Source of the DNA: Mya arenaria
Lineage: Eukaryota; Mollusca; Bivalvia; Myida; Myidae
Direction: 5' to 3'
NCBI RefSeq assembly: GCF_026914265.1
Contig: NC_069126.1
Span: forward strand, 41,265,237 to 41,329,236
Length of the DNA: 64,000 nucleotides
Part shown: positions 12,289-60,423 of the stretch, one piece after another
How positions within the stretch are numbered: the stretch's first letter is position 1
How the letters are laid out: each line of letters opens with the position of its first letter
The notes under the pieces: generated by a model
What the model saw: only the letters and a program-made list of their open reading frames with translations
What the model was told of the DNA's origin: nothing
Databases searched by the model: none
Program-made: the position numbers and the translations under genes

Positions 12289-12477
12289 CTAGCTCAACAT
12301 TGATGCATTGTGGGATATAGGATCTTCTAAAGCTGGTTCCAGTTTTGAGGGGATCTCAATATCAGCATACTCCGTCGGCGTATTTGTTCTCCTTGCTGGA
12401 ACTCTGGCGTTAGCTTCCTGTAGGAACGCGATGTCCAACACGGCGTATGCTAGGCCGTCGCCATTACGTTGTTGCTG
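12289..12477 (-). CDS. Terminal exon with ITIM and ITSM-like motifs (gene A)
   Basis: Begins after a TATATATAG acceptor in phase 0 and encodes 62 residues to TAG. It reads QQQRNGDG, then LAYAVL (L-x-Y-x-x-L, a canonical ITIM), ARVPARRTNTP, TEYADI (T-x-Y-x-x-I, ITSM-like), and ends in DPISHNASMLS. ITIM and ITSM motifs recruit SH2 phosphatases or adaptors in known receptors. A paralogous exon at 39370-39555 conserves both tyrosines (LAYAKL, TEYTDI) despite other changes. It joins in frame to the 17-nt microexon. Confidence 0.75.
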   Translation of the reverse strand, partial: QQQRNGDGLAYAVLDIAFLQEANARVPARRTNTPTEYADIEIPSKLEPALEDPISHNASMLS

Positions 12478-15400
12478 CTATATATAGCATTGTACTGCGT
12501 TACCGAATGACATGATTCGTGAATATTAGTATTATCGAATACGGATAACATTTGAAAAGGATGGTTATATTTTTAAACTTGCATGGCATCATATCTGGTA
12601 AATCATCATGTGTATTCGTCGTTATCTTTGAATGCATGCATGTTCAATTAATTATAAAATATTGCATACCCTCCTTACTGTTTTAAATAAGTGTTCTCCA
12701 TATTCTGACATTGAAATTTTGTTGGCTATCCTTCAAGTCTTACATTTATGTTCAGGGTACTTTGTACTTTTATATGATATCTGCATCACATGAAAAATCT
12801 CGAAGATTACCTCGAAGGGTGAAGAGTGACTCACCTGCAGTTCAATCCCCTGTGAGGCCGCCTGCCTCTGCACAACTGCGTACTGGACTCCTTCCGTTTC
12901 CATGTGTACCACACAATTTTCCGACGCCGTGTCTGTTTTATTCCGATATCATTAATTGCATTTATTTATAAAAGTTTATTTGGAGGGGAAAAAATAATAA
13001 TACTAGTATGCAGAGAACCAGAGCGAAAAGTATGAAACTGGATATAATTCCAAATGACAGACTGCATATTTATGTGACTTTTATATGATTATAACTATTT
13101 TATCAATAATAGACAATACATAAACGTTTAATTATTTTGATTAAGACCTCGAATTCGGATACAAGTGAAGTCGTAAGAGTCATATTTCACAGGTGTATTC
13201 ACTCACATTTCTCCACTTATTTAACTGATCATTTGAACACGTTATAAAATAAAATTCAATTTGCTGTTCAATTTATTGTATCGTCCAGCCAGGCAGTGAT
13301 TAACAGGTCTTTTTGACAGGCCCAAGGCTTAATTTTAATGCTAATGCATTTTTAAGTGGCTAACACTAACTCGGTTAGAATTTATTAAGATTTTTCTTTA
13401 TGAAAAAAAGAAGCCACTGTCACTTCGCTGCGTTCCCCTCCCTTAGGCTACTTTTAAGAAAGAAAAAACTGTAACCTATACTTAGAACATGATGGGTTGG
13501 AAGGATGGAAAGGATTCATACATGCACGTATAGTACCCTAAAAGATAGAAACTTACCGCTGTGATTTTCAACACTGAAAATAGAACGCAACAAGTATGTC
13601 AACTTTTATGACAAGAATAATTATACATGTATGCTTTGTTTAAGCTCTTACTTTGCAACTTTTACAGATATGTCAAATTTTCAAATTGTTAATCACTTAT
13701 ATAAACTAACAATTGATACATACATCTCTAGTGTGTTTACTGCGATGTCCTTTCGTCGTTTAAGAAATATACATCCTATAAAAGATATGTGTTGATATGA
13801 AACAAAACCAAATTTAGTTCTTAATATTGTGTTTGAGGAGTTTTATTGTAGTTTGCAACTAGATACGTTGTAATACGATACATAACATCAACATTAACAA
13901 CAAAGAAAGTAGAATGTTTAAAAAAGATTTCAAAATTGTAAACTCATACTTGATGAATTTTCACAAAAAATATTTATATACATATTCTGTCCCTTATTCT
14001 ATCGGTAATTCAGTCTTAAAACCTACCTTAAAATATATTGCATTGTCAAACTAAAACGAAACAGATAACAGGAAAAATATCATACGGACTGTTCTTATTA
14101 TTCTAACTATAACCATCATTAATCAATGCAGCAGTTTAAAAAGAACGTTTTCTCTAGTGGACCCTTTCAAAACTGACCGTTTTGCGTATTGTGCAAAAAA
14201 GTACCTTTTACTCGCTAAAGAATCTTAATCATTTTGAACTTAAAACCACTTGCGCTAACAAATATACGATGGTGAAATATGTGCATCTTATATTTATTGT
14301 TTAAAAGTTGTATTATGTTTCTTAGCTTTATTTCTATATTTGATAATTGGCTTGTTCGCAGTATAACGTATGGTTTCATTAATCACTGTCCATAATGTAC
14401 TTAAGTACCTAAATCTATTGTGTGTAATGGAAAATAGCGGTTATGATATTTGCTAATTAATTCGTGTCAAACAGAGTGCTCAACTTTACAAAATCATGGA
14501 CCTATGAAAAATAAAAAAAGAGGCAAAACAGCGTATCGGTGGTCAGTGCTCAATAGTTAAATATCTAAATGTAACGAGCGTTTGGATTTCGTTGACAAAG
14601 CTATCAGGAAAATGATCTATTCATAGTTTTGCTCTTGATTTGCAGCAATTGAATCAAAGGTTTGATTTATCATTATCGAACCACTAATGACTGCGAATGT
14701 AGTTAAATTGATGAGAGCATTAAGGAAATATACACAATCCTTACCTCCGATTGCAAACAATATGCAAAGTCCACAGAAAACGGCTGCCCCAATAAGTACA
14801 TTGTTAACTGGGAATCGGAATGTTGAAAACAATGTCTGAACGTCCTTTTCAAGGGATTGACTACCTACAATATTTTGTTTCCAATAAGATTGCAATATCA
14901 TTGAAAGAAACTAAACAAAGACATTTCATTCATTATAAGTTAAAAAATATATCTGAATAGTTGATTACTTTCAATGCTTTTTCTTTGAATTCAATTTTTT
15001 GCAAACAAATATCATTTCAAAATCGCCTGAATTATTAAGTGTTAATATGTATTCGTCTGTTTTGTTACAAATCTTTATAACAGTGCTATATTCATCTTCC
15101 CACCAAAAGGTATACTGCCCGTTAGCATTGAAATCATGCAACACAGTACCTTTTATGACCACTGTTGTATTTGGAGGTAAATCAACTGGTGACGTCGTGT
15201 TTAAAGACAGAGTCGGATCCCCTAAAGCGTAGTTTTGAGAACAGAACAAAATTTAAAGAAAACACTACACATAAATAATAAAGATTAAATAATAGTTATT
15301 ATTCGTTTCTGAAAAGTACTCCTTCCTGTAAGGTAAATGATTAAAAAACTATTTAGAACAAATGGTAAACTATAAAAACACACCCCAATGGCAGTTTGAC

Positions 15401-18400
15401 CGACAGTCGACAATATAAATAAGATTGAGTACGTACCTTAAAAGGATACATATTTTTTTTAGTTAAATCGGTTGCGAAATGACTGCATCTTATGGAACAC
15501 GTAATGGTTCCCCCAGCCATGTATTTAGTCACTTGGTAAATCATGTTGGGGACACAACTGTTACCCCCGTGTTCACCATAAGTCCAATTGCCACTATTAA
15601 TATATCTTGTGGCTTTCAATGATACAAACATATACCACGAGACAGATAGGTAAATTATGTATCTTAATTCTTATCTCAATCTCCTTTTTAACGTCTTTGA
15701 GTACGCATATGTTATACAATAAATAGAGGTTTATACAAGGAGTAGCCGGGTTTTTGAGTGATAATTGGCCCGTGTGATTCATAATGGCCCGAGACTTAGT
15801 CGACGGACATTATGAGCACGAGGGCCAATTATCACTCAAAAGCCCGGCTACGCTTTGTATTAACCTCATTAATACATTTGTTTGTTTTTCTTATTTTGTA
15901 AGTTTAACGGCTTCTGTTTAAAGTTTACCTGCAACCCAGTTGTGCATTCTTATTTCCTTCTAGCTTGATACGATGAGGAAACTCACTCTCAAATTAAATT
16001 TAGTTTTTGAGAGTAAGCCAAAAAAAATAAATAACATTTTGTTGTCATTTCATGTTCCAATTAATTTCAATTGTTCACCTAGGAAATTCCACAACATGTC
16101 TATCCGAATGTTTTTTTCCGAAACATTGACATCTGTCCTTTTATGTCTTAAATGTTACAATTAAATTACATAAACATTATCACGTAGCAAGTTGAACGAC
16201 TGTATGTACTTATATAACATGTACCTTGTAGTATTGATGTATACATGTATGTACAGTTTTTTTTAAGTAAATTCAATTTTGTTTTGTTTTTAAAATGACA
16301 AAGCTGAATAATAAAACGCCGCCCTAATAGTCCACACTGCTAAGGAAACACTAACATATTTTCCTTAACTGCTTTCGCGTTTGCCTCCCTTAAGGATTCT
16401 AATAATTAATGTGTTCAAACCGATAAATAAATTGTGCTTATTTAGTTAGGACTTTATTTCACAGTCGCCAAATTTGATTTTAAAGAAAAAATGAATTCAC
16501 GTGCCAACGTTCTACGAGCCGCAACATGATAATCGATAATTGGCCCGGGCCGCAAAACTGATAGTCGCTTAGTCATGCAAATAATTGCGGAAACCCTGCA
16601 CAAATGTGTTACTATATAGAGTCACATATGTATTAAGCTAGTTAAACTTACATTTGATACTGATGTTTTTGCATATGGAATGATCTGCTATTCCAAAGTC
16701 ATCAATACGTTTACAGGTGCAACACATTTCTTTTCCATTCCACAGTTTGTTAGTCTTTGTCACCTTAGATGTGCTTGTAAAAGTATGAGAAGATCCATTA
16801 AATAAATCAGTTTGCGGAACATCAGATATCAAAATATTGCCAACATGAATTTCTATTACCGGAGCCGGTAAAGCATTGCGCACTTCACAGATTATTGTCG
16901 AGCTTTCACCATCAAGAAATTCAGGAACTGTTAGAACGGGTGGGCTACCTTTCTCTGGAATTAAAACAAGGATTAAACAACATCCAATTTATTCACGATC
17001 CAACAATATTAATCTCAACCAAATTACTATTCATAGCTTTGCATTATGTATATTCTGCTTGCATACCAACGTTACATACAATGCCGTGCACTTCGAATGG
17101 TTTTTCAATGGCTGCATTTGAAACCTGACATGTCACATCCGATCTCGACAGTCCAGCCATTTGTTGATAAATGTTACTGAATAGGTAAAGCCCATTATCC
17201 AATTTGCTTTCAGCAAGAACATATGAATCCTGTCCCAGTAAAAGTGCCACTTGTACAGGTTCTGTTCCATTTTCAGTCTGGCAATATATGTCGGAATCTC
17301 CATAAACATAAATACAGTCTGTTGTTTTAAAGTCAACGGACTTTGGACCGAGGACTGGGTAACTCGGTGGTTCTGAAAAAAAACACACAAGCCATTTAAA
17401 TCACTAGGAATACCATAAAACCATGAAAATTGAAGGTTTATCACATTGCTGCTCATGTATTTATTATCTGTATTATTTATTATTTCTGTACTTATACGAC
17501 TCCTTTCTATTCCGAGCTAACATATCAAAACAAAACCAAAATTTAAAAGTCAGAATGCTTGGTGAAGTAAAATCAAGGTACCTGAAATATGAAGCTGCAC
17601 AGAATCCGTGTGTCCATCTGAATTACAACATAAAATATACGTTCCTTCATCTCTGTCTTCAAAGTTAAATATAGTCAATATGTACAAATATTCAGAAACT
17701 ATTTCCTCTTCGTAAGAATTTTCTCGTAGCTCTATGTCCTGGATATTTGCCTTCCATGTTCGTGTTTGCTGAATAGAATGGTCAGACGGAAAATATCCAA
17801 GTTTTACGTCCGCGCCGCGAACAATCGGGCTTAGTATCACCAGGGCTCCACATTTGCCAAGAATTTCTGTAAATAAGCGGGATTATCACATTAAAATCAT
17901 GTTTTTGCTTTGTATTTATTAAAAAGCATAGACAGGGCTTACAGTTAATTTAGAAAGCACACACATTCATTTATGTTAGGAGGCTTTAAAGGATAAAATC
18001 CACACTCCAAACGGAGAGGAAACAAAGACCAATCACACTCTTCATATCTTTATCATTTAATATGTATCAATACATATTTGGTTTACATCTTTGAGTGGAC
18101 GCCGATATATACCTTTCACATTTAAAGATAATAAGCGTGATCGTATGGCTGGGTTCTTTGAACATCCGGCGTAAAAATCAGATCTGTTATATTCAATAGA
18201 AGCTTTCCATTCCAAAAAGAAAGACCCATTCTCCGAATATCTGATAGCTTTTGGCCCATCCATTGTTTGAAATTGTGTGGTGCCTTGCATTATGTATTTC
18301 CATTCTACGTCACATTCCCAAGGATAGAACGGTGTCGCTTTCAGTGTAACCTCCCTGTTCACAAACGCTGGCCCTACCACTGATATGGTTCCGTAGTGGT

Positions 18401-18485
18401 TCCTGGCTACACAGATATACCCGAACAGAGCTGAAAATTGTTGCAAACGAAAAAAGTGCAAAATGACTGCGAGTACACATATCAT
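12289..18485 (-). CDS. Ig-receptor gene A with ITIM/ITSM-type tail
   Basis: Minus-strand exons: D1 18430-18113, D2 17866-17582, D3 17372-17067, D4 16954-16652, D5 remnant about 15608-15437, D6 15221-14969, TM 14864-14745, microexon 13573-13557, tail 12477-12289. An in-frame ATG at 18485 reads straight into D1 and could supply a signal peptide (MICVLAVILHFF to ICVA). A TTTCAG just before D1 may instead be an acceptor. Exons D1-D4 are open and phase 1. D2 has the Ig V-type DEGTYILCC; D3 has DIYCQTENGTEP. D5 has lost its first half and is one nt out of frame. D6 has lost a Cys and meets TGA before its donor. D1-D4 spliced straight to TM, microexon and tail would stay in frame. Otherwise this is a truncated or dead gene. 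A receptor role is inferred from architecture. Confidence 0.65.
13557..13573 (-). CDS. 17-nt microexon joining TM and tail (gene A)
   Basis: Bounded by TTTTCAG and GTAAG. It takes one nt from the TM exon (phase 1) and ends in phase 0, giving VLKITA. The same 17-nt length and the same six residues occur at 38308-38324 in the plus-strand relic, where the flanking splice sites are also conserved. Confidence 0.7.
14745..14864 (-). CDS. Transmembrane exon, A-type
   Basis: The 120-nt exon between ATTGTAG and GTAAGG is phase 1 at both ends. It reads GSQSLEKDVQ, then a hydrophobic helix NVLIGAAVFCGLCILFAIGG. It is unlike the C/E-type TM exon, so the family has at least two TM-tail types. A stop-bearing homologue is at 37838-37945 on the other strand. 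An upstream acceptor at 14911-14912 would add 46 nt but breaks the phase pattern. Confidence 0.65.
15724..15869. mobile_element. Short palindromic MITE in gene A intron
   Basis: GTAGCCGGGTTTTTGAGTGA then TAATTGGCCC on the left is mirrored by GGGCCAATTATCACTCAAAA then GCCCGGCTAC on the right, with a centre of about 50 bp. The symmetry extends outward to GAGGTT and AACCTC. It lies immediately 5' of the truncated D5 exon. Confidence 0.75.
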
Positions 18486-18929
18486 TCTTGAAAAAAGTTT
18501 TTGACTCGTAAAACTGAAATTAAGTATCCTTATGGATAAATTTGAGTGGCGATCTGTTTAAGTTGCAAATCAATCCATAAGAAAAAAACTGTAAGATTTT
18601 TATTATTCATTCTGATGTCTCTACATTTATATGGCATCTGATTCAATTATGAAATACATTTATAAACCCTCAGGGTAGGAACGTTACAGTAACTATATTT
18701 AGTATTTGAAAACGATGTAATTCTAATTAATTATTTCCATTAGTCTAATTTTTACATTATTTTAGAACATGAGTATTTCTGGCATATTGATTCATTATAA
18801 AAATAATTTTAAAAAACGAATATTCCAAAGTTTATGAAGTAAGGGAACATTTCATGGTGAGGTCTACTTAAGTTGACTAATAAATAATATTATTAAAATA
18901 TTATATTATTAAGTTATTTATAAAATAAT

Positions 18930-19025
18930 ACATGATTGACCATGGCTTTTGGTTGATAATTGCCCAAGTGCGAATAATAATTCCCCGAGGGGAATTATTT
19001 TTTTCTGGTTCATTTATCAACCATG
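18930..19025. repeat. Imperfect palindrome around AATTCCCC
   Basis: GGTTGATAATTGCCC on the left, the core AATAATTCCCC/GGGGAATTATT, and TTTATCAACCATG on the right form an inverted repeat. It is probably a decayed short MITE. Confidence 0.45.
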
Positions 19026-19287
19026 TCTTATCCTGTATGATACATTTGTTTTGTCATTTGGACAAATTTGTCAATGACTTGAAGTCTCTTGAACCGGTTT
19101 TGAAAATTAAAATGAAAAAAATGAGAAATAATAAATTGGTATTGGATTAGCATCAGCTATTAGAAATAACGAGTAATTGGAAATTAAAATAGCAAAACTT
19201 TTCTCACGTGTTTTCGGAGTTGGACGGCAAACATTTCCGTTCTTCAAATATTTCTTGTTTTTACATCGACTGATCTTGACGTTCATT

Positions 19288-22435: not shown

Positions 22436-22439
22436 TGGT

Positions 22440-26360: not shown

Positions 26361-29169
26361 TACAATTGACATTAACATATGATTGGGATGATAGATAAGG
26401 ATACATTTTTAGTGATACGTCAATATTTTGATCAGTTACTAAATCGGTTATATAGCACGGATATAATTTGCATCCGGTGCGTTTGTTCGACGGTCTCTGT
26501 CGGCGGATGGGGTATCCACATAGTCGTAGTGGCTGACATTCTCGTTTGAACGGACTTTGTTATCTTCCATATCCAATAGTGGTGGTTCGTCTTTGTTCTC
26601 TATGGCTTTTGCAGAAACTCCTCTCCTCAAATGTAAATAAAGCTGTTTTTAATAAATATCATACACATGAAACGATACAAACACTTCTATGGTTTACTAA
26701 AATTATATCCATGAAAAGGGAATTGATGACAATAGTGTTTGAACAAATTGTGAGTAACATGATATTATTATTACGAGGCACAAACAAAACCTAATTATCT
26801 TGGCAAATTGCCATATAAATGTTATAGTTATGCTGATGTTGTACGGTACCTCGCACAATCACATGCAACCCTCGGTTGTTTCTAACAACACGATATCACA
26901 ATTGGTGTATGAAACCGCTTCGCTCTCGAGTGGTATGAAGCCACTGAAGGTTTTAGCTACGAAATGTGTATATAGTGTATCTCATCCTGATCATGTAAAC
27001 GCTCCACACCAATGGTAAAACGTCATTCAAGGACATGGTCAAATGAATTTGAATACGTGTGATACAAGAATACAAGAATCAATTGCAGGTTCAATAATTA
27101 TAACGTAATATTAAACGACAAACAACATCGATATGAAATTGAATTAGGAACCCTGAGGTAGAACGATAGAGTGTTCTTAGTCAAGAAGACATACTATTTG
27201 GATGGTTATACTTTACAGAACTCTTACTAGATTGTGTAGCGCAGTTGTCTCTAAATTAGACTGAACATCATCGTACACATGTGCACCTCGCTCTTTACCT
27301 GCAGTTCTTCTTCGGCGTAGAAGCGTTTCATAAACTGTGTCAAAGAATTGAAAAGAAACAAATGTTCCGAAAGACTCGACGTCATTCTTTCACTCATCAT
27401 AATTTCAATTCAATTATGTAAACGTGAACAATTCATGTATTTCCTTTTTAGCGGACATGATAAGCTTAATTAAGCGATGTTACCAATTTTAAGAAATATG
27501 TGGAGCTCGTTACTCTAAATACATTTTTCACATAAGAATATATACAATAATGATCGGTCCAAGATTCACTGAAAAGCATCAACGTTATATACATGTTAGG
27601 TGTGTGTACGTTTGTGCATTTTTTGTACTTCCGATCCATATGCCATTGAGAGATTACAGAAATTGCATTGTGTGTTGAACATGATTCCGTAGCTTCCATT
27701 GTACTATTGGTAAAGTGAAATTAATTTTGCAATATCGATTAAACAATTTTCACTTCCCTTCAATTGAGATTGTTCGTATGTAGAGACAGGTTGTGCTCAT
27801 TTTAGCAGTGAGGTTATATACATATATGACCCTAGTTAGACCAACATAATTAAATTTGTGAGTGGACACTTGAGTTCACTTGAATTGGCATCCCTATCCG
27901 TCACAGATAAGTGAAAACGAGTTCACCTTCAGTTTTGATGAATTAATTAGATGATATTTCTTAATAAATTATTGTGACCAATGACCGAGGAAAATATATG
28001 CATCGATTTAATTATGTTTTCAAAGTCTAATTTTCAGTTAAAGAACCTGCACAATTACCATGATGTTTGCATCGCCTACATAGAGGTCCGGTTAACGTTG
28101 CTAGTGTTAAACCTGCAATTGTTCCCGATACGGCGTAAATGACCGGCTTATACCACTGTTGGGTAACATCTTGTGCAGGGTTGGCTGTTACTTCTGGAAT
28201 CAGACAAGTACTCCATTTTGACAAGAACGATAATGTTATTATATTGTTTTGTTCATTATTAATAATTGTATTTATTGCAATTTTATGGATTACAAGTAAT
28301 ACCAATTACCGTACCTTGAAAAGGTACAATTCATTGTGTATGTTTATAATACACCATCAAGAATATAACATCAATCAAATTAGGTAAACTTCATTCAAAT
28401 TTGTATTTGCAGTGTTTACCTAAAACAATCTTAATTACCATTTGGAGTTATCTTATTTATTTCTTGGACCTTGATGTTATCATCGGAGGGTAGAAACACT
28501 GTAAAACATCTCACTATCTTGGCATTCGATACATAAAAGATACATTAAGGTTCCAATTATCTCATATTTGTATATAAATAATCACAATAACCGGTGTTTC
28601 AGACGTTCACTGTGTGGATTTTACTACTCTACTAATTTTAAAGAATTGACTGTCTCAATCAGAAATAATGTTAAAATTGAAAACAAAAATAGAAAAAAAA
28701 ACTAACAAAAGGTAAAGAATGGAATGTACAACTCAGATTTTAGTTCAAGTGACATTTGCAAGAAGTATTGATGCGATGCTTTGTTGTGGTAGCATTTAAA
28801 TGTATATTTGAAACGTTATGTACAAACCCTTTGCCAATGAGTTAAAAACTGTCAATACATGTCTTAAAAGCTCGTCTGATTTCCATGCGCTGCAAATGTA
28901 TATCTTCTTTTCATTTCCCGTATAATTCAGTGTCAACAGGCATTCCTCTGTTTGTTTACAAGTCTTTATTTCAGTTTTAATTTCATCTTCCCACCGAAGC
29001 GTCCATAGTCCTGTAACATTGCAGTCATCAACAAAACATTTGACGGTTACCTTCATATGTGGATGTAAATCAAGAGGTGATGTCGTGTTCAAAAACAGAG
29101 TCGGACAACCTGAAATAAAGTGTTGAAATTTTAAGAAGGTAACATAAAAGAATAAAATACCGAGTGAAG

Positions 29170-29296
29170 AAAAAAACACTACTTATCATTCTATAAAGAC
29201 GAACAGTAAGTTCTATCAGTAATAAAACTACAATTGTTTCCGATACTGCCTTAATGACCGACGTACGCCACTCTAGGATAATAACTAGTGCTTCTG
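29170..29296 (-). pseudogene. Decayed upstream TM exon in gene E
   Basis: After TTTGCAG it reads EALVIILEWRTSVIKAVSET and resembles the active TM exon (QQWYKPVIYAVSGT), but the donor GT has become AT (ATG then ATAAGT). It lies between D6a and D6b. A homologous decayed exon with stops is in gene C at about 54568-54437. Confidence 0.65.
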
Positions 29297-42831: not shown

Positions 42832-45800
42832 TTATATTGGATGTATATAATTCGCTTCCGGTACGTTTGTCCGACGGTTACTTTGGGCGGATGGGGTATC
42901 CACATAGTCGTAAGAGTTTACACACTCGTTTGAACGGACTGGGTTTCCTTCCATATCACATAGTTGTGGTGCGTCTTTGTTCTCGATTGCACTTGCAGAG
43001 ACTCTTGTCTTCAAATGTAAATAGTGCTTAATTTAATAAATATTATATTCATTAAACAAAAAAAAAACATAACTTTCAAATTTAGTAATTCTTGTTTAGT
43101 AATTTTAGAAATCAGATTATCAAGTATTTTAGGTGTTTAATTATCAATTTGCCATATATACGAGTAGTACGCTGATTGTAGCTGAGGATATAGAATACCT
43201 TGCACAAGCACATGCTACTCTCAGAGGCTTCTTACAACACGATACCACAAGGGTTGTATGAAACCGACTTGATCTCGAGTGGTATGAAACCTCTGAAGGT
43301 TTCATCTACAAACAGAGTATGGAGTGTTCCTCACCGCTCTACATCATTGAATTAAAATTTCAAGCATTTAACTGTTGTTTTGTTCAAACGTTATCTTACA
43401 CGGCTAGCAACATCGAAAAACAAATGAGGTGAAACAATATATGATTGTTTGGTATGGAACATTTTAAAATTGATGATTATAATAGAAAACTTACCAGATT
43501 GTGAAGTGCAGTTGTCTCAATATTAGACTGAACATCATCGTACACATGTGTACTTCGCTTTCTTACTGCTGGTCTCCTTAGGCGTATAAGCGTTTCATAA
43601 GCTGTGTCAAATATATCAATATTGTCATTAATCATGATGTAACAGACTTCTTCGGATTAAAAACAGAATAAAATGTAAATTTGGAAAGACACGATGACGT
43701 TTTTTTAATCATTGCGATGCCATTGCACTCATTTGAACGTCAACTATTCATATATTTCCTTATTGGTGGACAAGATATACGAAATTAACCGATGCCACCA
43801 ATATTCAAGTTTGATATTAAAACATATGTAAATACTCTATCTCATTTCTCTTATTTCATTCATGATCGATCCAAGATTCATCGATATACATTAACGTTAT
43901 ATTTATGTAAGGTTTATGAATGTGCAGATATATATTTACTTTCGATCCTTATGCACTTCAAAATTTTACAGTATATGTTTTAGGTGCTGAACATGTTTCT
44001 GCAGCTTCCATTAAATTATCGATTTACTGACACTGGTTTTGCAATGTTTCGATTCCATTTCATCTAGTGATATTCTGATGAACCCGAAATATATATTCAA
44101 ACTCGTTGTACTGTCTCAAGCTTCAAATATGATTTTTCGTATGCATAGATAAGTTGTGCTGATTTTATCAGTGAGGTACCACACGATTAACGTCCCTAGA
44201 TATACTAACATGATCAAAATTTTAAGTTTTTCAAAGTTGGCACTTGATTACCAAAGGCACGTCTTCTGTCACAGATACGTTTACATTAATCTACCTTTGG
44301 TTAACTGAGTAAAACATTGTCAACAGGGTAATCGACGTTCACAAGTAGCTTACCTTGAGTTTGAAGCAGAATATCTGGATGTGTCAACAGATAATTTAAA
44401 TTCTGATCAGTAATCCAGTTATGCATAGATAGAACATACTTAGTTTTCTCATTTTCAATTTAGAGTATTTGCACAATTACCATGATGTTTGCATCGCCTA
44501 CATAGAAGCACTGTAAACGTTGTTACAAGTAAAAATTTAACTGTTCCCGACACGGCGTAAAGGACCGATATATGCAACATTTTGGACACAACTAGTACAG
44601 GGTTGGTTGTTGCTTCTGCAATTAGATAATATTTGCCTGTTTCATGCACACAATGAGAGAAATACCAACATTCAGATAAGGTTGAACTTCATTCAAATTT
44701 GCATATGCAGTGTTGTAGTTTGCTTAAGACAATTTTATTAACGCAATAAAATCAGTGATCCCTCTCATGAACCTTCACGTTATCATTGCAGTGGCAACGT
44801 TAAACATCTCAATATATTTTCATTCGTAAGAGACATTTTATTATCAAATGTCTCGTATTTGGAAAAATAAATTGATAAATCCGAGGCTACATACGTTAAC
44901 TGTATGGATCTTACCACTAATACCGTACAACTGTCTCTCTCAATGAAATCGAATGCTAAAAAATATCAAAGAATAAAATACAAAATAAGGAAAGAAACTG
45001 TTCAGTTGACATCGGTGTCTGATTGATTGATTGTTTGCTGGTTTAAGTATCATTTAAAATGCATATTTAAATTGTTTTATACAAACCCTGTGTCACTGAG
45101 TTAAAAACTGTCAATGAATTTCTCAGAAACTCCTCTGAATTCCATGCCCTGCAAACGTATGTATTTTCGCCATCTCCCGTATAATTCAGTGTTAACAGGT
45201 CTTTATTTCAGTGTTATTTTCTGCTTCCCAGCGAAGCGTCCATTTCTCTTTAGCATTGCAGTCATAAACACGACATTTAACGGTCAGTGTATTCTTCGGA
45301 TATAATTCAACAGATGATGTCATGTTCAAATACAGAGTTGGATCACCTGAAATGTATTGTGAAAATTGTTAAGAGAGTAAAAACGTAACATAAATACCTA
45401 GTGTAGAAAAAAAAGTAATCATACATTTCATATGTATTTAATTAAATTCATATAAGAAGTGAGTACACATGTAATTCTTATGAAAGATACAACAATATAT
45501 AAGTACATTCCGAAAGAAGTATATCTTTGTAAGAAGAAATATCATGAAACTAGCAGTCACGGTTAAATGAATTATAGATAATTTAACATTGTTCTGTACA
45601 AAACGGAATATACTTGGACTCAAATACAGCTTGGAAATCTATAGAAGACTCGCCTAGCGGCTCGTCCAATATGACTTTCCAAGCTGTGTACTGGTCCAAA
45701 TATATATATCCGTATTGTATAGAACAATGTAAGATAACCTATAATTACACTTAATGAGATATCTACTACTTCCTGTTAGGTAAATGGGTAAAATGCTATG

Positions 45801-48298
45801 TATACCAATTAGTGTAATATAAAAATACATTCTGAAAGACAGAGTTTTCAGCAAAACAAATGCATCATAAGTATGGAGATAGGAGTCTCGGTTTAATCGA
45901 TAGTGTGGCCGAACGTCGACAACATAAATAAGATCGAGTACGTACCTGAAAAGGATACAACATAATTTTCGGTTAAATGAGATGAAAAATGATTGCATCT
46001 AGTGGAACATGTGATGATTCCCCCAACCATGTCTTTAGTCACTTTGTAAATTACATTGGAAACAAAACTCCCATGTTCACCATAAGTCCAATTGCCACTA
46101 TTAATATATCTTAAATCATCTCTGTTGCTTGCCCATTCAATGACGCAAGGCGGATTTGATTCATTCGTTTCACAAGAAAGGTTCATGAAATAGGCAGAAA
46201 CACTGTCGCTATATTCGGGTTTTTTGCTCACCGACATCGAAATGTCCGAAGGCGGATCTGAAAGCAGAACACGAAAAACCTTTATATAACTTTTTTGTTT
46301 ACACTTCAGAAACGCTAAGAAAATAACAAATAATAAATTATGTATCTTCCCATGCTACAAACATTTACCACGAGAAGGATAGGTATATCAAGTGTGTTAG
46401 GCCTTATCTCAATTTCCAGTTTTAACGTCATCAAGTACGCACATTTTATACAATAAATACGCTAGTGAAACTTACATTTGATACTGATGTTATTGCATAT
46501 GGAATGATCTGCTATTCCAAAGTCGTCAATACTTTTCCTTGTGCAGCACATTTCTTTTCCATTCCACAGTTTGTGAGTCTTTGTCACCTTAGCTGTGCTT
46601 GCATAAGTATGAGAAGATCCATTAAATAAATCAGTTTGTTGAACATCAGATAGCAAAACATTGCCAATATGTATATCTCTTACCGGAGCTGGGAAAGCAT
46701 TCCGCACTTCACATGTTGTTGAAGAGTTTGCACCATCAAGATATTCAGGAACTGTTTGATCGGGTTGGCTACCTTTCTCTGGAATTAAAACAATGATTTT
46801 ATAACATCCTATATTATACACGATCCAACAATATTTATCTCCACAAAATTACGAATCATATACATTATGTTTATTCTACTTGCTTACCTACGTTACATAG
46901 AATGTCTTGCACTTCGTAAGGTGTTTCAATGGCTGCATTAGAAACCTGACATGTCACATTCCGATTCGACAGTCCTGCCATGTGTTGATGAACGTTACTG
47001 AATAGATAAAACCCATTGTTCTGTTCGCTTTCAGCAAGAACAAATAAATCCTGTCCCAGTAAAAGCGCCACTTGTACAGGTTCTGTTCCATTTTCAGTCT
47101 GGCAATATATGTCGGAATCTTCATAAACATAAATACATTTTGTTGTATTAAAGTCAGCGATTTTTGGACCGAGGATTGGGTAACTCGGTGGCTCTGAAAC
47201 AAATCATTTATATTACTTGAAATAACAATTACCCATGAAAACTGAAGATTAATCACGTTGCTGCTCATGTATTTATTATCTGTAGACATCATTATCCTTT
47301 TTGTACTTATACGATTCCTTTTTATTCCGAGCTAACATATCAAAACAAAACCAATATTTAAAAGTCAGAATGCTCGGTGAATTAAAAGCAATGTACCTGG
47401 AATATGAAGCTGCACAGAATCCGTGTGGCCACCTGAATAACAATATAAAGTATACGTTCCTTCATCTCTGTCTTCTAAGTTAAATATAGTCAATATGTAC
47501 AAATATTCAGAAACAATTTCCTCATCGTAAGAACCTTTTCGTAGCTCTATGTCCTGGATATTTGTCTTCCATGTTCGTGTAGTGTTTATTTGCTGTATAG
47601 AATAGTCAGATGGAAAATATCCTAGTTTAACGTCCCCGCCACGAACAACCGGGCTTAGAATCACGAGGGCTCCACACTGTCCAACAATTTCTGTAAATAA
47701 GCGGGATTATCACATTAAAACCATGTTTTTGCTTTGTATTCATTAAAAAAACATGGACAAGCCTTATAGTAAATTGAAAAAAAAACACGCTCATTTATGT
47801 TAGGAGGCTTTAAAGAATAAAATCCAAATACCAAACAGAGAAGACCAATCACATTCTTTATACCCATATCAGTTAGTGTGTATCAATACATATTTGGTTT
47901 ACATGTTTGAGTGGACGCCGATATTAACCTTTCACATTTAAAGCTATTAAGCTTGATACTATTGTTGTGTTTGTTGAACATCCGGCGTAAAAGTCAGATC
48001 TGTTGTATTCAATAGAAGCTTTCCATTTCAAAAAGAAGGACCCATCCTCCGAATATCTTTTAACGTTTGTCCCGTTCATTGTTTGAAAATATGTGCTGCC
48101 TTCCATTATGTATTTCCATTCAACCTCGCATCCCCATGGGTAAGAGGGTGTTGCTTTCAAAGTAACCTCCCTGTTCAAAAACGCTGGCCCTACCACTGAT
48201 ATGGTTCCGTAGTGCTTCCTTGCTACACAGATCAGCCCGAACAAAGCTGAAAAAAAAATAGTAAATGAAAAAAGTGCAAAAAGATTGCGAGTACACAT
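42832..48298 (-). CDS. Ig-receptor gene B, six Ig exons, one deletion
   Basis: Minus-strand exons: D1 48246-47929, D2 47690-47397, D3 47193-46888, D4 46778-46476, D5 46257-45946, D6 45346-45087, TM 44615-44481, tail 43601-43495 and 43008-42832. An ATG at 48298 reads into D1 as a hydrophobic leader (MCTRNLFALFSFTIFF to ICVA); a TTTCAG before D1 may instead be an acceptor. D2 is V-like (DRDEGTYTLYC); D3 has DIYCQTENGTEP; D5 has GGIITCSTRC. TM reads ISVLYAVSGTVKFLLVTTFT. Tail motifs are AYETLI, THVYDDV, NSYDYVDTP and EANYIHPI. D6 is 260 nt, not 282; the 22-nt deletion puts a stop right after KTC. The intact product would be secreted or truncated. Skipping D6 would restore a five-domain membrane receptor. 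All domain exons are phase 1. Confidence 0.75.
45613..45700. mobile_element. Small hairpin MITE in gene B intron
   Basis: TACAGCTTGGAAA and TTTCCAAGCTGTGTA form an inverted repeat, with TTGGAC and GTCCAA at the outer ends. It lies between the D5 and D6 exons. Confidence 0.55.
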
Positions 48299-49250: not shown

Positions 49251-49254
49251 ATAC

Positions 49255-50850: not shown

Positions 50851-50852
50851 AC

Positions 50853-51785: not shown

Positions 51786-54700
51786 TTATATAGCATGGAT
51801 ATAATTTTCATTTGGTGCGTCTGTTCGACGGTCTCTGTCAGCGGATGGGGTATCCACATAGTCGTAGTGACTGACAGTCTCGTTTGAACGGGCTTGGTCA
51901 CCTTCCATATCCAATTGTGGTGGTGCGTCTTTGTTCTCGATGGCTCGTGCAGACACTCCTCTCTTTAAATATAAATAAAGCTGATTTTAATAAATAAAAA
52001 TCATTACATGGCACAATCAAAATCGTCTTATCTTAGAAAATTGCCATATATATAATAGTTACGCTGATGGTTACTGAGGATGTACAATACCTCTCACAAT
52101 CGCATGCATGCTTCAGTGGCTTCTAACCACACGATATCATGATATAAGTGTTGTATGAAGCCAGTAAAGGTTTCACCTAAGAAAAGTGTATAGAGTGTAC
52201 CTCACCCTGATCATGTGAACGCTCCACACCAATGGTAAAACGTCATTCATGGTCAAAGTCAAATTGATTTCAATACATGCTATATACAAGAATCAATTGC
52301 AAGTTCAATCATTTAAGCGTTTTTAATAACGTAATATTACACGAATAGCAACATCGATATGAAATTGAATCGAAAACCCTGAGGTAGAACGATATAGTGT
52401 TCTTAGTCAAGAAGACAGGCTGTTCTGATGGTTATACTTTACAGAACTCTTACTAGATTGTGAAGCGCAGTTGTCTCTACATTAGACTGAACATCATCGT
52501 ACACATGTGCACTTCGCTCTTTGCCTGCAGTTCTTCTTCGACGTAGAAGAGTTTCATAAACTGTGTCAAAGAATTGAAAAGAAAAAAAAGTTTGTAAACT
52601 CCGAGAGACTTGACGTCATTTTGTCACTCATCATAATGTCAATTCAATTTTGGTGAACGTCAATAATTCATGCATTTCCTTTTTAGTGGACACGATAAGC
52701 TTAATTAAGCGATGTTACCATTTTTTACCAAATATGTGGAGCTCATTTTTTTCTAAATACATTAATGATCGGTCCAAGATTCACTGAACAACATCAACGT
52801 TATATTCATGTTAGGTGTGTGTACGTTTGTGCATTTTTGCACCTCGATCCTCGTGCCATTAAGAGATTACAGAAAAAGTATTGCGTGCTGAACAAGTTTC
52901 CGTAGCTTTGTATTATCAATAAAGTGAAAATCTATTTTGCAATATCGTTTAAACAGTTTTTTCTTCCCTTCATTTAAGGTTGTTCGAATGCAGAGACAAG
53001 TTGTGCTCATTTCAGCAGTGAGGTAGTATACATATATGTCCCTAGATAGACTTATATAATCAAATTATATATAAATTTGTAAGAGGACACTTGAGGTGAC
53101 TTGAATTGGCATGCCTATCTGTCACAGATAAGTGGAAACGAGTTCACTTAAGATTTACTGAGTGAAACATTGTCATCGGGAAACAGACGATCACAAATGC
53201 CTTACCTTTTGTTTTGATGAATTAATTAGATGGTATTTCTTAATAAATTATTGTGACCAATGACCGAGGAAAAAATATGCATCGATTTAATATTGTTTTC
53301 AAAGTCTAATGTTCAATTAAAGAACCTGCACAATTACCATGATGTTTGCATCGCCAACATAGTAGTCCGGTAGGCGTTGCTAGTGTTAAAACTACAATTG
53401 TTCCCGACACGGCGTAAATGACCGGCGTATACCACTGTTGGGTAACATCTTGTGCAGGGTTGGTTGTTACATCTGCAATTAGACAAGTACTCCATCTTGG
53501 CAAGAACGATTTTGTATTTGTATTGTTTTGTTCATGAATAATTGTATTTATTGCAATTTCATGGATTAAAAGTAATACCAACTACCGTACCTTGAAAAGG
53601 TACAATACATTGTGTATGTTTATAATACACCATCAAGAAAATATCAACGATCAAATTAGGTAAACTTCATTCAAATTTGCATATGCAGTGTTTACTAAAG
53701 ACAATCTTACTTAACACAGTTATTGCAGTTGTCATATTTATTTCTTGGACCTTGATGTTATCTGCGGAGGGAAGAAGACTGTAAAACATCTCACTGTCTT
53801 GGCATTCGATACATAAAAGATACATTTAGTTTCCAACTGTCTCGTATTTGGATATAAACAATTACAATAACCGATGTTTCAGTAGTCTACTGTGTAGATT
53901 TTACCACTAATATCAAAGAATTGTCTTTCTCTAACAATCAGAAAGAATGTTAAAATTTAATAAAAAATAGAAAAAGTAACAGAAAGTAAAGGATAAATTG
54001 TACAGCTCAGATTTTAATTGAAGTGCCATTTGCTATATAACTATTGATGCGATGCTTTGGTGTGGTGCCATTTAAAATGTATATATCAATAATTATATAC
54101 GAACCTTCTGTTATTGTGTTTAAAACTGTCAATGAAAGGCTCAGAAGCTCGTCTGATTTCCATGCGATACAAATGTATATCATCTCTTCATCTCCCGTAT
54201 AATTCAGTGTAAACAGGCATTCCTTTGTTTGTTTACAAGACGTTATTTCAGTCTTATTTTCATCTTCCCATCGAAACGTCCATTGCCCTGTTACATGGCA
54301 GTCATCAACAAAACATTTGACGATCAACTTCATTTTTGGATGTAAATCAACAGGTGATGTCGCGTTCAAATACAGAGTCGGACAACCTGAAATGTAGTGT
54401 AGAAATTGTTAGAAAGTAACAAAGAAGAATAAATACCGAGTTTGGAGAAAACAAATCTTAACATTCTATAAAGACGAACAGTAAATTATATTAGTCATTA
54501 AACTACAATTGTTTCCGATACTGGGTATAGGACCGGCGTATACCACTCTAGGATTATAACTAGTGCTTCTGCAGAAATATAACATTTGCTGTGCAAGTAC
54601 TCCAGTTTGGAAAGTTTGGTTCTGTAACTATTCTGTTTGGTCAATTTATTATTGTTTTTATTGCATTATATTTCTTATATTCAAAATAATACCAACTAAC

Positions 54701-57700
54701 GTACCTTGTTAAGGTTGAAAATAAATTGTGTAAGCTTCATGAACACAATTAAAAAATACCAACAATCAGATTAGGATAAATTACATTCAGATTAGCATAT
54801 GCAGTGACGTATTTTGCTTAAGGTAACCTTATTAAACACAGTGAATAAAAGTGATTTCAATTATTTCATGAACCTTCATGTTATCTGCGGAATGTGGTGG
54901 CACCATAAAACCTCACAATATATTGCATTTCGTTGTCAGTTGTCTTCAATTTGGATATATAATAAATCACAATAACTGAAGCTACAGAACTTTACCATGT
55001 GGATTTTAACATTGCTATCAAAAAACTGTCTCTATCAATTAAAATAAATGTTAAAAGATAATGAACAGTAACAAATTATTGAACTGGAACAAAAATAATA
55101 ATAATAAATAAGGCGCAAATAAGGCACAAAAATCCTTTCAGTTACATTGGGGCAAAATGATTGACACCTGGTTTTGGTATCTCGCAAAATGTATATTTGA
55201 ACGTTAAATACAAACCTTCTGTCAATGAGTTTAAAACTGTCAAGGAGTTTCTCAGAAGCTCTTCTAATTTCCATGCGCTGCAAATGTATGTCATCACTTC
55301 ATCTCCCGTATAATTCAGTGTCAAAAGGCATTCCTCTGTTTTTTTACAAGTCTTTATTTCAGTCTTATTTTCAGTTTCCCATCGAAACGTCCATTGCCCT
55401 TTTACATTGCAATCATCAACAAAACATTTGACTGTCACTGTAGTATTCGGATATAAGTTAATAGGTGATGTCGTGTTCAAATGCAATGTCGGGTCACCTG
55501 AAATGCAGTATTATATTCTGGTTAAACCCAGTAATAAGAAAACAGTAAATATCACACATGTAAAGATAAATTGTATTGTATTCCTGTTCCTATTTTACAT
55601 TTTTTAAAGAAAAAACATTATCATTTTTATTTATTGTATTCTGATTGGCTATTGGCATAAAGACATGAGAAAATCTTTTGCAGTTTATCAATATATTATA
55701 TAGGAATGCGATCAGGACAGAATACAAAATCGATTCCCAATGTTATTTAAAACCACAATTGGCATAATTGTGTTTTAATATAGATTTTTGAATGTACGAA
55801 AGCTTTCATAAAATATTGAATATTAAATATATGATATATATTGTTGGTTTCAGTGTCACATCGTGTTCTATTCCACAAGTGGCATAAAAGTGACATATTG
55901 TCACGAGTGGTGAAGCCACCTGTAAACATATAGCTTTTAATATGATCACGAGTCAAATGAAATACAATCTTACGCTGAAGTCGTCAAGAAATGGTGTTTC
56001 TCTTATGCTAATTTTGTGAGATTTACTAGTGTGTTTTTTTTTCGAAAGGAGTGCTGCTTTCTACGCCGCTTACAGTGGGACGCCCTTCACGTAAAATTAA
56101 AGCTGATGACGTAGCTGTTCATTTTCTATTTCCTAATCGTTACGAAAAGTTCATCGACAATTTTAGCAAAACAATTGCAGATAATCATTGGGTAAAACAC
56201 TTTCAGTTTTAGAGTTTGTTTTATGATACCTAGGTATTCAATCACCCCTCACTGTAAAAGACCAGTCTGATTCGCTTGAAGACAGGTAGTTTCCCAGGTA
56301 AAGAGTGAAGACAATGCTGCTAAGTTGTTAAACTTCGAGGCTTGTGGGGGGGGGGGGTAAAAAATTAATCAGTTAACCTTTTAATTGTTGTGTTAATTTC
56401 GGGAAGTTCGTTTTACGTATTGCAACGACAAACAGGTCAAAAATATATTTGAACGATGTTGTTTTCGTCTTTGATTTATTTTGTATGAACGCAAATGTTC
56501 GAACATTAGGCTTCAAAGTTCAAGAAAACGTTTGAAAAAAACAATATTTTTTAATAAACGGTAAGCTGTGTTTATTCCCAAATATTTCTTTAGTTAAACT
56601 AATGCAACGTTCTTAAATTTCAAATTATTTTTGGGCAAAATTTTCTAATTCAAAAGTAACGTGTTTAGTTTTGATCAAGGGGAAACTACTACAATGGATT
56701 TTAAAAGAAGTTATTAAATTCTCAAAGTTGATCCTTTCACTGTTGTTACTGTATTTCACTGATTAAACTCCATATTTAAACAAAAAGCATGAAAAAAGGG
56801 AATTATCGCGTTGAAAGATAGATTGGTTATTACTAATGTTAGGAGTGGGAAAACACTTTGAATAAAACAAATATGATAATACATAAGCACGATGCGGAAG
56901 ACGGACCCCTTTAGGAGATGAATGTACATGAGAAATACGTCACGATTGGTGGTGTAAGTCATTAAATAAGTAAAATTGAGTACGTACCTTTAAAAGACAA
57001 TGAGTCATTTATATTGAAATGAGATGGGAAATGATCGCATCTTGTTGAACATGTTATTGTTCCCCCAGCCATGTTTTTTGTCATTTTGTAAAGTACGTTT
57101 GAAAATGAACGGTAACCCTCACTGTCACCATTCGACCAGTTGTTTCTCTGAATGTATCTCAAATTATTGTTGTCGCTTGACCATTCAATCGTGCAAGGTG
57201 GATTTGATTCATTTGTTTGACAAGACACATGTAGGAAACATGCAGAAATATTGTTGTTGTAGTCATGTGTTTTGTTTACGGACATCGAAATGCCAGTAGG
57301 GGGAACTGAAATGGAAAAAGAGAAAATGCATTTCATAAATGTTTTGTAATATCAGATGTCTGAAACCTTAGTGCATTTCTTATGTCATTTAAAACGACCG
57401 TTGGCAGATACATGTACTAAAATTCATTTGATATACGAAAGCTTACTTTTAAAAGGGGAATTCTCTTACTTCATACTGATTGGTAGTAATTAGTATTCGA
57501 GCTTATAGACTAAATAGTGTGCATTGATATCGTCATCTGCTAAGCATGCAATTAATAATAACACACTGATAACCAATTCGAATGTAGGTGCATTTTACCG
57601 ATTGACCGTCTTGGTGTATTTGATTATTGAGAAGCACATATTATTCAGTTGCATCGAATGCATGTTTGACAAAAGTAATAGAGACGGAATGCCAACAACT

Positions 57701-60423
57701 TCTAACAATTAAACACTGTATTCAAACTCGAAATCAATCCTATTAGACTTACATTTCATATTAATCGTTTTGCATACTGCAACATTTTTAATACCAAAAT
57801 CGTATTTGCTTTTCCTGGTGCAGCACATATCTTTTCCATTCCACAGTTTGTTAGTCTTTGTCGTCGTTGCTGTGCTAGTAAACGTATGAGAAGATCCATT
57901 AAATAAATCGATTTGTTGAACATATGCTAGCAAAATTTCGCCAATGCGTAGTTCTATTGCCGGAGCAGGGACAGCATTGCGCACTTCACATATTGGTGAA
58001 GAGCTTTCTCCAAAAAGAAATTCAGGAACAGTAAGTATGGGCTGGCTTCCATTCTCTGCAATTAAATAAATGCTGATAACAACATCGAAAATTATGTTCG
58101 ATTCAATAATAAGAAAACCCACAAAAAATGTATCATAGCTTGTCACTTAGTCGCTTCTTTTATCCTGTCACTTGCATACAAATCGGTCCAATAACAAGGT
58201 GCTGTGTAAATTTTAGTTATTAGGATAGTAGATCGCTTGTTTTTTATCTACAGTCAGTTGGTCATGTGACCACGAAAACGGATTTTTTTATGAAAAGTCA
58301 GAGGAAAAGCACAAATAATGTTTCAGTATCTTATCGACAGTCCGCTAACAACCGACTTCAAATATCATTCGCCCATAAAGTCCCATCTCTCTGCATACTA
58401 AGGATACTGGCAAAACAATCGACCAGAAAATCTATATGTGATGTGAAAGTCTTACCACACCCGCAAATACTTGAAACAGTGCAGCATTCAACGATAGTTA
58501 ATTCCATTTATGTGGTGAATGACAAATTCTCACTTAAAACATAAATGAGTTATCTCTTTGTCGGTGCAATTCTGAACATTCAACACTATCAACATTATTT
58601 AAATCCATTTCACATGTGGCGATTGTTTGTAAACACTCGTGATCTTGAACCATGGCATGTGTACTCTGTGACTTGCGAAATAATTGTTACATCATCAGAT
58701 AATGTTTTGTAACTGGTCCAAGTCTATGCACTTTTAAAAGCTTTTGAACTGATATTGACGTATTAAAATGCAATTACTTTGACTATAAGCATATTGAAAA
58801 AGTATAACAGTTTTGAGAACTATTGTGTGGGCACTTGACCGAGTGTGCTGACGTCAACAGGGGAGAAAGTTGTCCCCCTTATTTTTAAAAAGCTAAATAT
58901 TTTTAAGATTAAATATAGTGTTTAAATACAAAATATAACATGATAAATAGAATAGTAGATCTGGGCCGTGGATGAAGAAAGTTTATCTGGCTCGGCTGCG
59001 GAATTCCTCCGCCTTGTCAGATAAACTTCCTCCATCCACGGCACTAACCTAGTATTCTCTACCTAGCTTACCTACGTTACATAGAATGCCGTGTACTTCG
59101 TATGGCGTTACAGTGGCTGCATTTGAAACTAGGCATGTCACATTCCGTCTCGACAGTCCATCCATTTGTTGAGAAACGTTTTGGAAACGGTACACTCCTT
59201 TGTTCCATTTGCTTTCAGCAAAAATAAACAAATCATGGCCAAATAAAAGTTCTACTTGTACAGGTTCTGTTCCATTTTCAGTTTTGCAATACAAGTCGGA
59301 GCCCTGATCAACATATATGCATCCTGTTGTATTAAAGTCAGCCGATTTTGGACCGATAACTGGATAACTTGGTGGCTCTGAAATAAATATTGAAATGACT
59401 TGCTGCTCATGCGATTATTACCTAGCAACATTAATAATCCTTCTTGTACTTATATGACTCCTTTTTATTCCAAGCTCTTCCAAAACAAAACCATTTATTA
59501 AAAGTCAGAATACTCGCAGGGGTAAAAGCAATGTACCTTGAATATGAAGCTGCATAGATTCCGTGTTGCCACCTTGACTGCAACTTAAAGTATATGTTCC
59601 TTCATCTCTTTCTTCGAAGTTAAATAATGTCAATATGTACAAATATTCAGAAACCATTTCCTCTTCGCAAAAACCTTCTTGTAGCTGTATGTCATGGATG
59701 TTTTTCTTCCATGTTCGTCTGGTTTTTGTTTGAAGCCGTATAAAATAGTCAGACGGAAAATATCCAAGTTTGACGTCCGCGCGCCGAACAACCGGGCTTA
59801 GTAAGAAAAGAGCTCCACAATTTCCAACAATATCTAAATAAATTATAATACAAATAAGCTTAATTATCACAACTAAACCATTTTTGCTTTGTATTTTTGA
59901 AGATGAAAACAAACAGTAGGAACCACATGGACAGGCCAAATAGTAAAATAAAAACACATTCATTTATGTAAGAAGGCTCTAAATATTAAATCCAAATAAC
60001 AAACGAAGAAGAAACAAAGATCAACTCACACACTTTCTATTAATATAGATTGGTGTGTATAATTACAAGATTGGTTTTCACCTTGGAATGGACTTTAATA
60101 TTTACCTTTCAGATTTAAAGATATTAAGCGTGTTCTTATCGTTGTGTTTGTTGAACATCCGGCGTAGAAGTCGGATCTGTTGTATTCAATTGAAGCCCAC
60201 CATTTCAGAAAGAATGACCCATCCTCCGAATATGTTATAACATGTGACCCTTTTATTGTTTGTAATAGTGTGCCATTTTCCATTAAGTATCTCCATACTA
60301 CGTCACACCCCCAAGGACTGAACGGTGTTGCTTTCAGTGTTACTTCCCTGTTCACAAACGCAGGCCCTACCACTGATATTGTTCCATACTGCTCTCTGGC
60401 AGAACATATGTAACTTAAAAGAG
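51786..60423 (-). CDS. Ig-receptor gene C, seven Ig domains, intact
   Basis: Minus-strand exons: D1 60423-60106, D2 59833-59537, D3 59377-59072, D4 58055-57753, D5 57305-56988, D6a 55497-55216, D6b 54386-54105, TM 53472-53338, tail 52560-52454 and 51962-51786. They sum to 2525 nt. With one carried-in base that is 842 codons and no stop until TAA. Key features: D1 GTISVVGPAF and FYAGC; D2 ERDEGTYTLSC; D3 LYCKTENGTEP; D4 ICEVRNAVPAPA; D5 GGTITCSTRC; D6 VTVKCFVDDCNVKGQW. TM is VIYAVSGTIVVLTLATPTGL, then CWRCKHH. Tail tyrosines are VYETLL, HVYDDV, SHYDYVDTP and ENYIHAI. There are many NxS/T sites. No in-frame ATG directly precedes D1, so the signal-peptide exon must lie upstream and was not located. 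A receptor function is inferred; ligand and partners are unknown. Confidence 0.85.
54437..54568 (-). pseudogene. Decayed upstream TM exon in gene C
   Basis: After TTTCTGCAG it reads EALVIILEWYTPVLYPVSET, then IVV and in-frame stops. It lies between D6a and D6b like its counterpart in gene E. A D6-plus-TM module was therefore duplicated before genes C and E separated, and the inner TM exon was silenced. D6a to D6b splicing skips it in frame. Confidence 0.7.
58930..59060. mobile_element. Palindromic MITE in gene C intron 3
   Basis: GCCGTGGATGAAGAAAGTTT and ATCTG on the left are mirrored by CAGATAAACTTCCTCCATCC and ACGGC on the right. Symmetry extends outward to AGAATA and TATTCT. It ends only about 12 bp from the D3 donor. 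Confidence 0.7.

Follow-up and report, generated by a model that had tools for sequence, protein, structure and literature searches.

Innate lymphoid and myeloid control in vertebrates characteristically relies on pairs of inhibitory and activating receptors. Their activating members carry a charged residue in the transmembrane (TM) segment and are coupled to an adaptor with an immunoreceptor tyrosine-based activation motif (ITAM), and Siglec tails place an inhibitory motif (ITIM) ahead of a switch motif (ITSM). We know of few invertebrate parallels to paired receptors. Here we analyse a window of 64,000 nucleotides from the genome of the clam Mya arenaria (contig C5, positions 41,265,237-41,329,236), which holds six copies of a receptor gene with several immunoglobulin (Ig)-type exons. 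Members of the family are built from a signal peptide (where found), about six Ig-type exons, D1 to D6 (with an extra D6 or D5 in some), one TM segment and one tail, which belongs to one of two classes. On these features, these type I membrane receptors, whose genes are spread over several chromosomes, are probably a family of paired receptors, a reading to which we give a probability of about two in three.

Signalling by an oyster IgIT is said, in the title of a paper, to inhibit the antimicrobial response, and by analogy oysters may likewise possess opposing Ig receptors or a paired system. The oyster CgIgIT2, in those passages of its account on which we draw, is one gene encoding five Ig domains, a TM segment and an ITAM (PMC11999971); like the clam family it is a molluscan Ig receptor with a TM segment and a tyrosine motif, the two being compared by description only. 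Oyster CgSiglec-1 is a molluscan Ig-type lectin with two I-set domains, and the available passages of its account do not describe tail pairing (PMC5877582). No molluscan family of the clam kind turned up in open-access literature listings. Botryllus FcoR and Hydractinia Alr are likewise Ig-family receptors of invertebrates and bear ITIM or hemITAM motifs; excerpts of one account give FcoR the layout IgV-sushi-2x IgC2 and describe some loci that can swap motifs, partly by alternative splicing (PMC12065747), whereas each clam gene that we read has one tail. The teleost IpLITR receptors, too, combine several Ig domains with tyrosine-motif tails. Passages on IpLITR 1.1b, a putative inhibitory receptor, link it to actin-dependent phagocytosis and describe an association with Nck, proposed to run through the motif HIYDEV, which is closely like the clam HVYDDV (PMC4810170). 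The likeness is one of build and motif, and in the clam the YDxV and ITIM-type motifs sit in separate, exchangeable tail classes. In Xenopus, the XFL family of at least 75 genes is described, in the parts of the account used here, as shaped by birth and death and by exon recombination, with similar extracellular regions on distinct TM regions (PMC2413239). Birth and death and exon recombination are common to the clam family and to the FcR, KIR, LILR, Siglec and XFL families.

The copies in the window were located by self-comparison and by tblastn with the exons of gene C, the only complete copy among the six. Together with 26 fetched gene loci (L-numbered) picked from the list of D1 matches, 20 of them within C5 41-42 Mb and 6 at other places, they make up the 32 copies read. 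Genome-wide exon searches covered the Mya arenaria genome only (1,216,080,610 bases in 18 contigs, C5 being 80.8 of 1216 Mb), and their counts refer, for each query, to the best 150 or fewer candidates that were scored.

The 11 exons of gene C join into one open frame of 854 amino acids (aa), comprising a signal peptide, seven Ig-type domain exons, a TM segment and a tail. Each intron is GT-AG, and the phase is 1 after every exon as far as the TM exon. An original prediction made from the letters of the window had taken gene C to be intact and its introns to be of phase 1, and the gene model bears out both points: phase-1 GT-AG introns flank all its Ig-type exons. Exon 1 was recognised as a conserved block upstream of D1 in five other loci (86% identical to gene C in L018, 80% in L015, 77% in L042, which lies upstream of L036, 73% in L040, with a short stretch in L024). 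The block ends in MDKCCRYILMSGF, followed by a phase-1 donor. ATG exons resembling it, with a phase-1 donor, are also present in L037 and L026. Gene C has two D6-type exons, with a stop-bearing TM-like exon between them (Table 1).

Tails fall into two classes, and among the 32 copies read 17 carry class I, 14 class II and one relic neither. Genome-wide, 75 of the 162 D1 exons tabulated (out of ~169) are followed by the class I exon T1 and 67 by the class II exon T2, leaving 20 without assignment; genes of both classes are interspersed on C5 and C9. The class II tail (TM-Y-T2) has a VQYAVV-type motif in exon Y and, in T2, LxYxx[LV] followed by a TEYADI-type motif. By their consensus we take VxYxxV/LxYxxL to be of ITIM type and TEYADI, which hardly varies between copies, to be of ITSM type, an order that is Siglec-like. 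The Y exon has a tyrosine with V at -2 in 14/14 copies and a strict ITIM in 12/14, counts that include a window relic whose motif holds a stop. In T2, LxYxx[LV] and TxYxxI are each readable in all 14, with a frameshift between them in L019 and L039 and a stop behind them in L023 and L028. The class I tail (TM-X-T1) has a membrane-proximal VYETL (tyrosine kept in 15/17), YDx[VI] (16/17), Y[DE]Y[VI] (15/17) and a C-terminal motif of YIHAI type (14/17). In nephrin, YDxV is described in part of one account as an Nck-binding motif (PMC12203975). A single gene making both tails by alternative splicing was considered and rejected, as no copy read has both tail sets; the stretches read could cut off some tail exons, which limits this one-tail-per-gene observation.

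Two clusters stand out in the arrangement of their tail classes. At C9:74.84-75.86 Mb, class II genes lie minus:plus 13:1 and class I genes plus:minus 22:7 (strands counted by eye; Fisher p 3e-5), and what is duplicated on C9 may be a class I/class II pair in inverted orientation. Of the 16 genes at C16:51.99-52.50 Mb, 14 could be assigned, every one of them to class II.

The relation between ectodomain and tail was examined with trees and with direct comparisons of gene pairs. In a codon tree of D1-D4 from 25 of the 32 copies (all in which 3 or more of the 4 exons lack stops), tail class is distributed as at random: it changes 9 times against a mean of 8.6 when tails are shuffled, and the well-supported branches alone force at least 6 changes. 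Single-exon trees of D1, D2, D3 and D4 give 11, 9, 9 and 8 changes against shuffled means of 9.8, 8.4, 8.6 and 8.6. The D5 tree is intermediate (5 changes, mean 6.7, with 38/300 shuffles as low), and the D6 tree of 20 copies follows tail class (4 changes, mean 7.0, 3/300 shuffles as low). Gene A (class II) and its neighbour L021 (class I), the closest pair, share 92% identity across 2.1 kb that begin upstream of D1 and stop where D4 ends; beyond D4 they share a match only in D6 (74%). Between L028 (II) and L033 (I) a likeness of 84-90% runs past D4 into the next intron, with only D6 (79%) matching further on; L024 (I) matches L026 (II) at 75% up to and including D5 but not beyond; and L019 (II) and L022 (I) are alike into the intron after a class II-type TM exon, where they diverge. 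Both L022 and L030 combine a class II-type TM exon with a class I tail. As read from sequence comparison, the D1-D4 module has repeatedly been combined with one tail or the other; the joints, where the match within a pair ends, lie at or after D4, after D5, or in the intron that follows the TM exon. The exchange presumably proceeds by recombination among tandem neighbours.

The family extends well beyond the window, and the expectation that it would not be single-copy holds: ~169 D1 exons were found among the best-scoring matches (150 from the best-150 search plus 12 and 7 from two divergent D1 queries, the union being made by eye), together with at least 150 D5, 126 T1 and 87 T2 exons. The largest clusters among the 162 D1 exons tabulated are C9 74.8-75.9 Mb (49), C5 41.0-42.0 Mb (27), C5 22.5-23.1 Mb (16) and C16 52.0-52.5 Mb (16), followed by C5 68 Mb (11), C5 50 Mb (9), C5 10.6-10.8 Mb (6), C11 4.2-4.3 Mb (6) and smaller sites. 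One D1 exon (C9:75555748-75556044, minus strand) lies inside an open frame of 1777 aa, in contrast to the usual short exon frames. The birth-and-death pattern of the original prediction is seen in the condition of the 32 copies: 7 have all expected exon types open, 11 have one absent or broken, and 14 have more than one (the signal-peptide exon was not required for this tally, and any D5- or D6-type exon was accepted). As the Ig-type exons are of phase 1, the reading frame can survive when one of them is lost, and copies with one Ig exon missing may still work.

Pfam matches D5 of gene C to C2-set_2 (Table 1) and D6 weakly to V-set_CD47 and Ig_2. Among 25 members, D4 matches C2-set_2 in 18 and C1-set in 14 (best E 1e-4), D2 matches I-set in 13 (best E 0.0013), and D3 matches C2-set_2 weakly in 3 (best E 0.044). 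None of 29 D1 members matches any Pfam Ig family, including V-set, the kind of N-terminal domain with which Siglecs bind sialic acid, and the predicted D1 model has seven strands at low confidence; D1 is specific to the clam receptor family and presumably of Ig type. Compared with vertebrate KIR, LILR and FcR, the Ig domains give generic Ig matches only (Pfam, PDB). Three known kinds of protein were rejected: Dscam (the gene C exons give no FNIII match, and the genes are separate tandem ones with D5 or D6 at most doubled), molluscan FREP (no C-terminal fibrinogen match in the gene C exons, a TM segment and tail being present instead) and a single-copy adhesion protein such as a nectin (the family is multi-copy).

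The receptor proteins are constrained. Ratios of nonsynonymous to synonymous change (dN/dS) were pooled over stop-free, near-full-length exons, a set that favours functional copies. They are 0.44, 0.52, 0.42, 0.41, 0.45 and 0.59 for D1 to D6, 0.97 for the class I TM exon and 0.39 for the class II TM exon, 0.63 for X, 0.53 for T1, 0.36 for Y and 0.61 for T2. In D1 and D2 the lowest windows come near 0.1. Several tail motifs fall in low-change windows: TEYADI is the lowest-change six-codon window of T2 (rank 1/56), and HVYDDV, SHYDYVD, NYIHAI and VQYAVV rank 4/34, 3/52, 3/53 and 6/27.

The arrangement typical of paired receptors, related ectodomains on two tail classes of which one is of ITIM type, is what we find. 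In the mechanism that we propose, D1-D4 would bind ligands on microbes or other cells, the class II tail would recruit SH2 phosphatases and damp haemocyte responses, and the class I tail would recruit Nck-type adaptors and drive actin-based uptake or adhesion. Through tail exchange, a given recognition specificity could gain or lose inhibition.

Several observations weigh against this reading, and we set them out here with the alternatives on which they bear. Class I is not of the vertebrate adaptor-coupled activating type, because 14 of the 15 class I TM exons read have no charged residue in the span (gene B alone has a lysine); unlike vertebrate activating members, class I receptors have tyrosines of their own, and an activating role for them is a guess. 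The fold of D1 is poorly modelled and finds no Ig match. The copies read are 32 of ~169, and many are damaged. In addition, blocks on C9 (75.71-75.77 Mb) and C11 (4.24-4.32 Mb) are near-identical, their copies having the same scores but running in opposite order, and C5 10.61-10.82 Mb holds three near-copies of gene C (97-99% over D1) for one in the window. Both the C9/C11 and the C5 10.6/41.3 Mb blocks may be recent segmental duplications or unpurged haplotypes, and haplotype duplicates may inflate the D1 total. Taken to its end, this would make the family a mostly inert graveyard swollen by assembly, with few working genes among many dead copies and unpurged haplotypes, as the small share of fully open copies and the ~15 of the 150 best D1 rows whose score and identity recur in a second row (by eye) would suggest. 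We regard such a graveyard as very improbable, given that the stop-free exons, a selected set, are under purifying selection, that complete copies are located on C5 and C16, that 146/162 tabulated D1 exons are free of stops, and that the three C-like copies facing one in the window are not simple alleles.

Other difficulties concern the tails. LAYAVL (13/56 windows as low) and VYETL (15/35) lie in windows that, as a whole, show no unusual constraint. The receptors might serve adhesion or scavenging, their tail tyrosines acting mainly as YxxPhi sorting signals and the two tails marking trafficking routes instead of opposing signals. The ITIM-type, ITSM-type, VYETL and YDxV motifs all fit YxxPhi as well, and VYETL stands close behind the TM segment, in keeping with such a role, as is the unremarkable LAYAVL window. 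YxxPhi, however, needs neither the T at -2 of TEYADI, nor the V or L at -2 of the ITIM-type motifs, nor the D at +1 of YDx[VI], and these are nevertheless conserved; we consider sorting quite unlikely as the main function.

The last points concern the ectodomains. No domain has an overall dN/dS above 1 among stop-free exons, which counts against simple runaway diversification; of all Ig-type exons, D1 and D3 vary least (mean identity 0.68 and 0.70). Only in local windows do point estimates reach ~0.9-1.4, at D1 46-57 and D2 25-36, and 1.5 by local dS, at D3 52-60. Strong conservation of D1 and D3 would suit a single family of self ligands, and the main functional rival is allorecognition, in which the receptors, in the manner of Botryllus FcoR/fester or Hydractinia Alr, would detect polymorphic self ligands on other clams' cells, gametes or transmissible cancer cells, and not microbes. 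It is compatible with the same molecular scheme as paired receptors, and large, fast-turning clusters with ITIM-type tails resemble the Botryllus FcoRs and their ITIM or hemITAM tails as partly described (PMC12065747). A conserved D1 would equally suit a structural or dimerisation role, and we hold allorecognition to be unlikely.

Paired receptors remain our preferred reading, and the window itself, whose features are listed in Table 1, shows the family at several stages of decay. All four of A, B, C and E are minus-strand copies, both relics are plus-strand, and Ig-type exons mostly match between copies at tblastn E < 1e-20, far beyond chance.

Table 1. Gene C exon by exon, and the other receptor copies, in window positions.
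Feature	Position	Strand	Description
Gene C exon 1	60941..60980	-	start codon, then N-terminal half of signal peptide (MDKCCRYILMSGF); conserved block, in-frame join
Gene C exon 2	60106..60423	-	rest of signal peptide, then D1 (most distinctive of the domains), without a Pfam Ig match
Gene C exon 3	59537..59833	-	D2, weakly I-set-like
Gene C exon 4	59072..59377	-	D3, Ig-type by weak matches only
Gene C exon 5	57753..58055	-	D4; relatives match C2-set_2/C1-set, gene C exon itself without match
Gene C exon 6	56988..57305	-	D5, C2-set_2 (E 2.3e-7)
Gene C exon 7	55216..55497	-	D6, V-set_CD47/Ig_2-like
TM-like exon	54501..54566	-	between the two gene C D6 exons; in-frame stops just beyond; excluded from gene model
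Gene C exon 8	54105..54386	-	second D6-type domain
Gene C exon 9	53338..53472	-	stalk and TM segment, the latter without charged residue
Gene C exon 10	52454..52560	-	class I tail exon X (VYETLL, HVYDDV)
Gene C exon 11	51786..51962	-	class I tail exon T1 with stop codon (SHYDYVDTP; NYIHAI at the C terminus)
Gene B, class I	42835..48223	-	D1 47927-48223, D2 47395-47676, D3 46883-47194, D4 46471-46779, D5 45944-46255, D6 45085-45347 (frameshift), TM 44470-44616 (lysine inside), X 43495-43611, T1 42835-43002
Gene A, class II	12292..18407	-	D1 18111-18407, D2 17580-17852, D3 17065-17373, D4 16647-16955, D5 15440-15607 (truncated), D6 14980-15222, TM 14719-14805, Y 12835-12930 (VQYAVV), T2 12292-12477 (LAYAVL, TEYADI)
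Copy E, class I, dead	26451..36384	-	no D1; D2 only as fragment (two copies), D3 split, stops in D4; D2-D5 block doubled (31402-34243 and 34242-37061, 98% identical); two D6; TM 28045-28194, X 27228-27344, T1 26451-26624
Relic	581..1570	+	D1, D2 and D3 fragments with stops
Relic, class II	36375..39552	+	D4 and D6 fragments, TM and Y broken, T2 open 39367-39552 (LAYAKL, TEYTDI)

The original prediction, an array of genes A, E, B and C sharing D1 to D6 and ending in tyrosine-motif tails, with two relics bringing the copies to six, stands for the most part. The array is there, both relics were recovered (at ~0.58-1.57 kb and 36.4-39.6 kb), E is dead as described, and the domain order is as stated in A, B and C; it fails for E, which has no D1 and a fragmentary D2. 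TM exons and tails are present as well, but the existence of two distinct tails (gene A and the 36-39 kb relic against B, C and E) had been overlooked. The array was given as 12289-60423, and gene C begins further upstream, at its signal-peptide exon (60980-60941). A signal-peptide exon was also looked for in genes A and B and was not found.

Other features of the window and its contig deserve mention. An open frame of 140 aa (window 5135-5554, plus strand) contains HEFAHTIDKY, presumably a zinc-metalloprotease-like signature, and matches Peptidase_M90 with E 0.024, below the cut-off. Tandem repeats occupy 6838-7214, 7749-8070 and 9114-9521, with periods of ~87-96, 37 and 135 bases. By eye, 65 of the best 150 Pfam Ig_3 exons scored are on C5, and two further kinds of Ig exon, unlike the clam receptor family, were seen in L043 and L044 (58.5 and 70.5 Mb) and in L045 and L046 (34.3 and 17.2 Mb). 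C5 seems to be rich in several Ig receptor families.

The clam family is best read as convergent with KIR, LILR, Siglec and LITR, having evolved independently. We do not claim membership in any named vertebrate family; the comparison with LILR, KIR and SIGLEC clusters in the original prediction gains from the ITIM/ITSM-type tails and from tail exchange, as analogy and not as homology. In a bolder version, which we put forward tentatively and at somewhat less than even odds, a bivalve would have evolved pairing at chromosome scale, with D1-D4 shuffled between inhibitory ITIM/ITSM tails and actin-driving Nck-type YDxV tails. The sign of the response would then be switchable in evolution, perhaps as a layer deciding between attack and tolerance of foreign cells in this clam, which is host to a transmissible cancer. 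If the paired-receptor reading is true, the size of the family and the two tails exchanged on one ectodomain would make it a strong case of convergence. The family would also provide a list of candidate receptors for friend/foe discrimination by haemocytes and, more speculatively, a possible link to the question of why transmissible cancer cells are tolerated.

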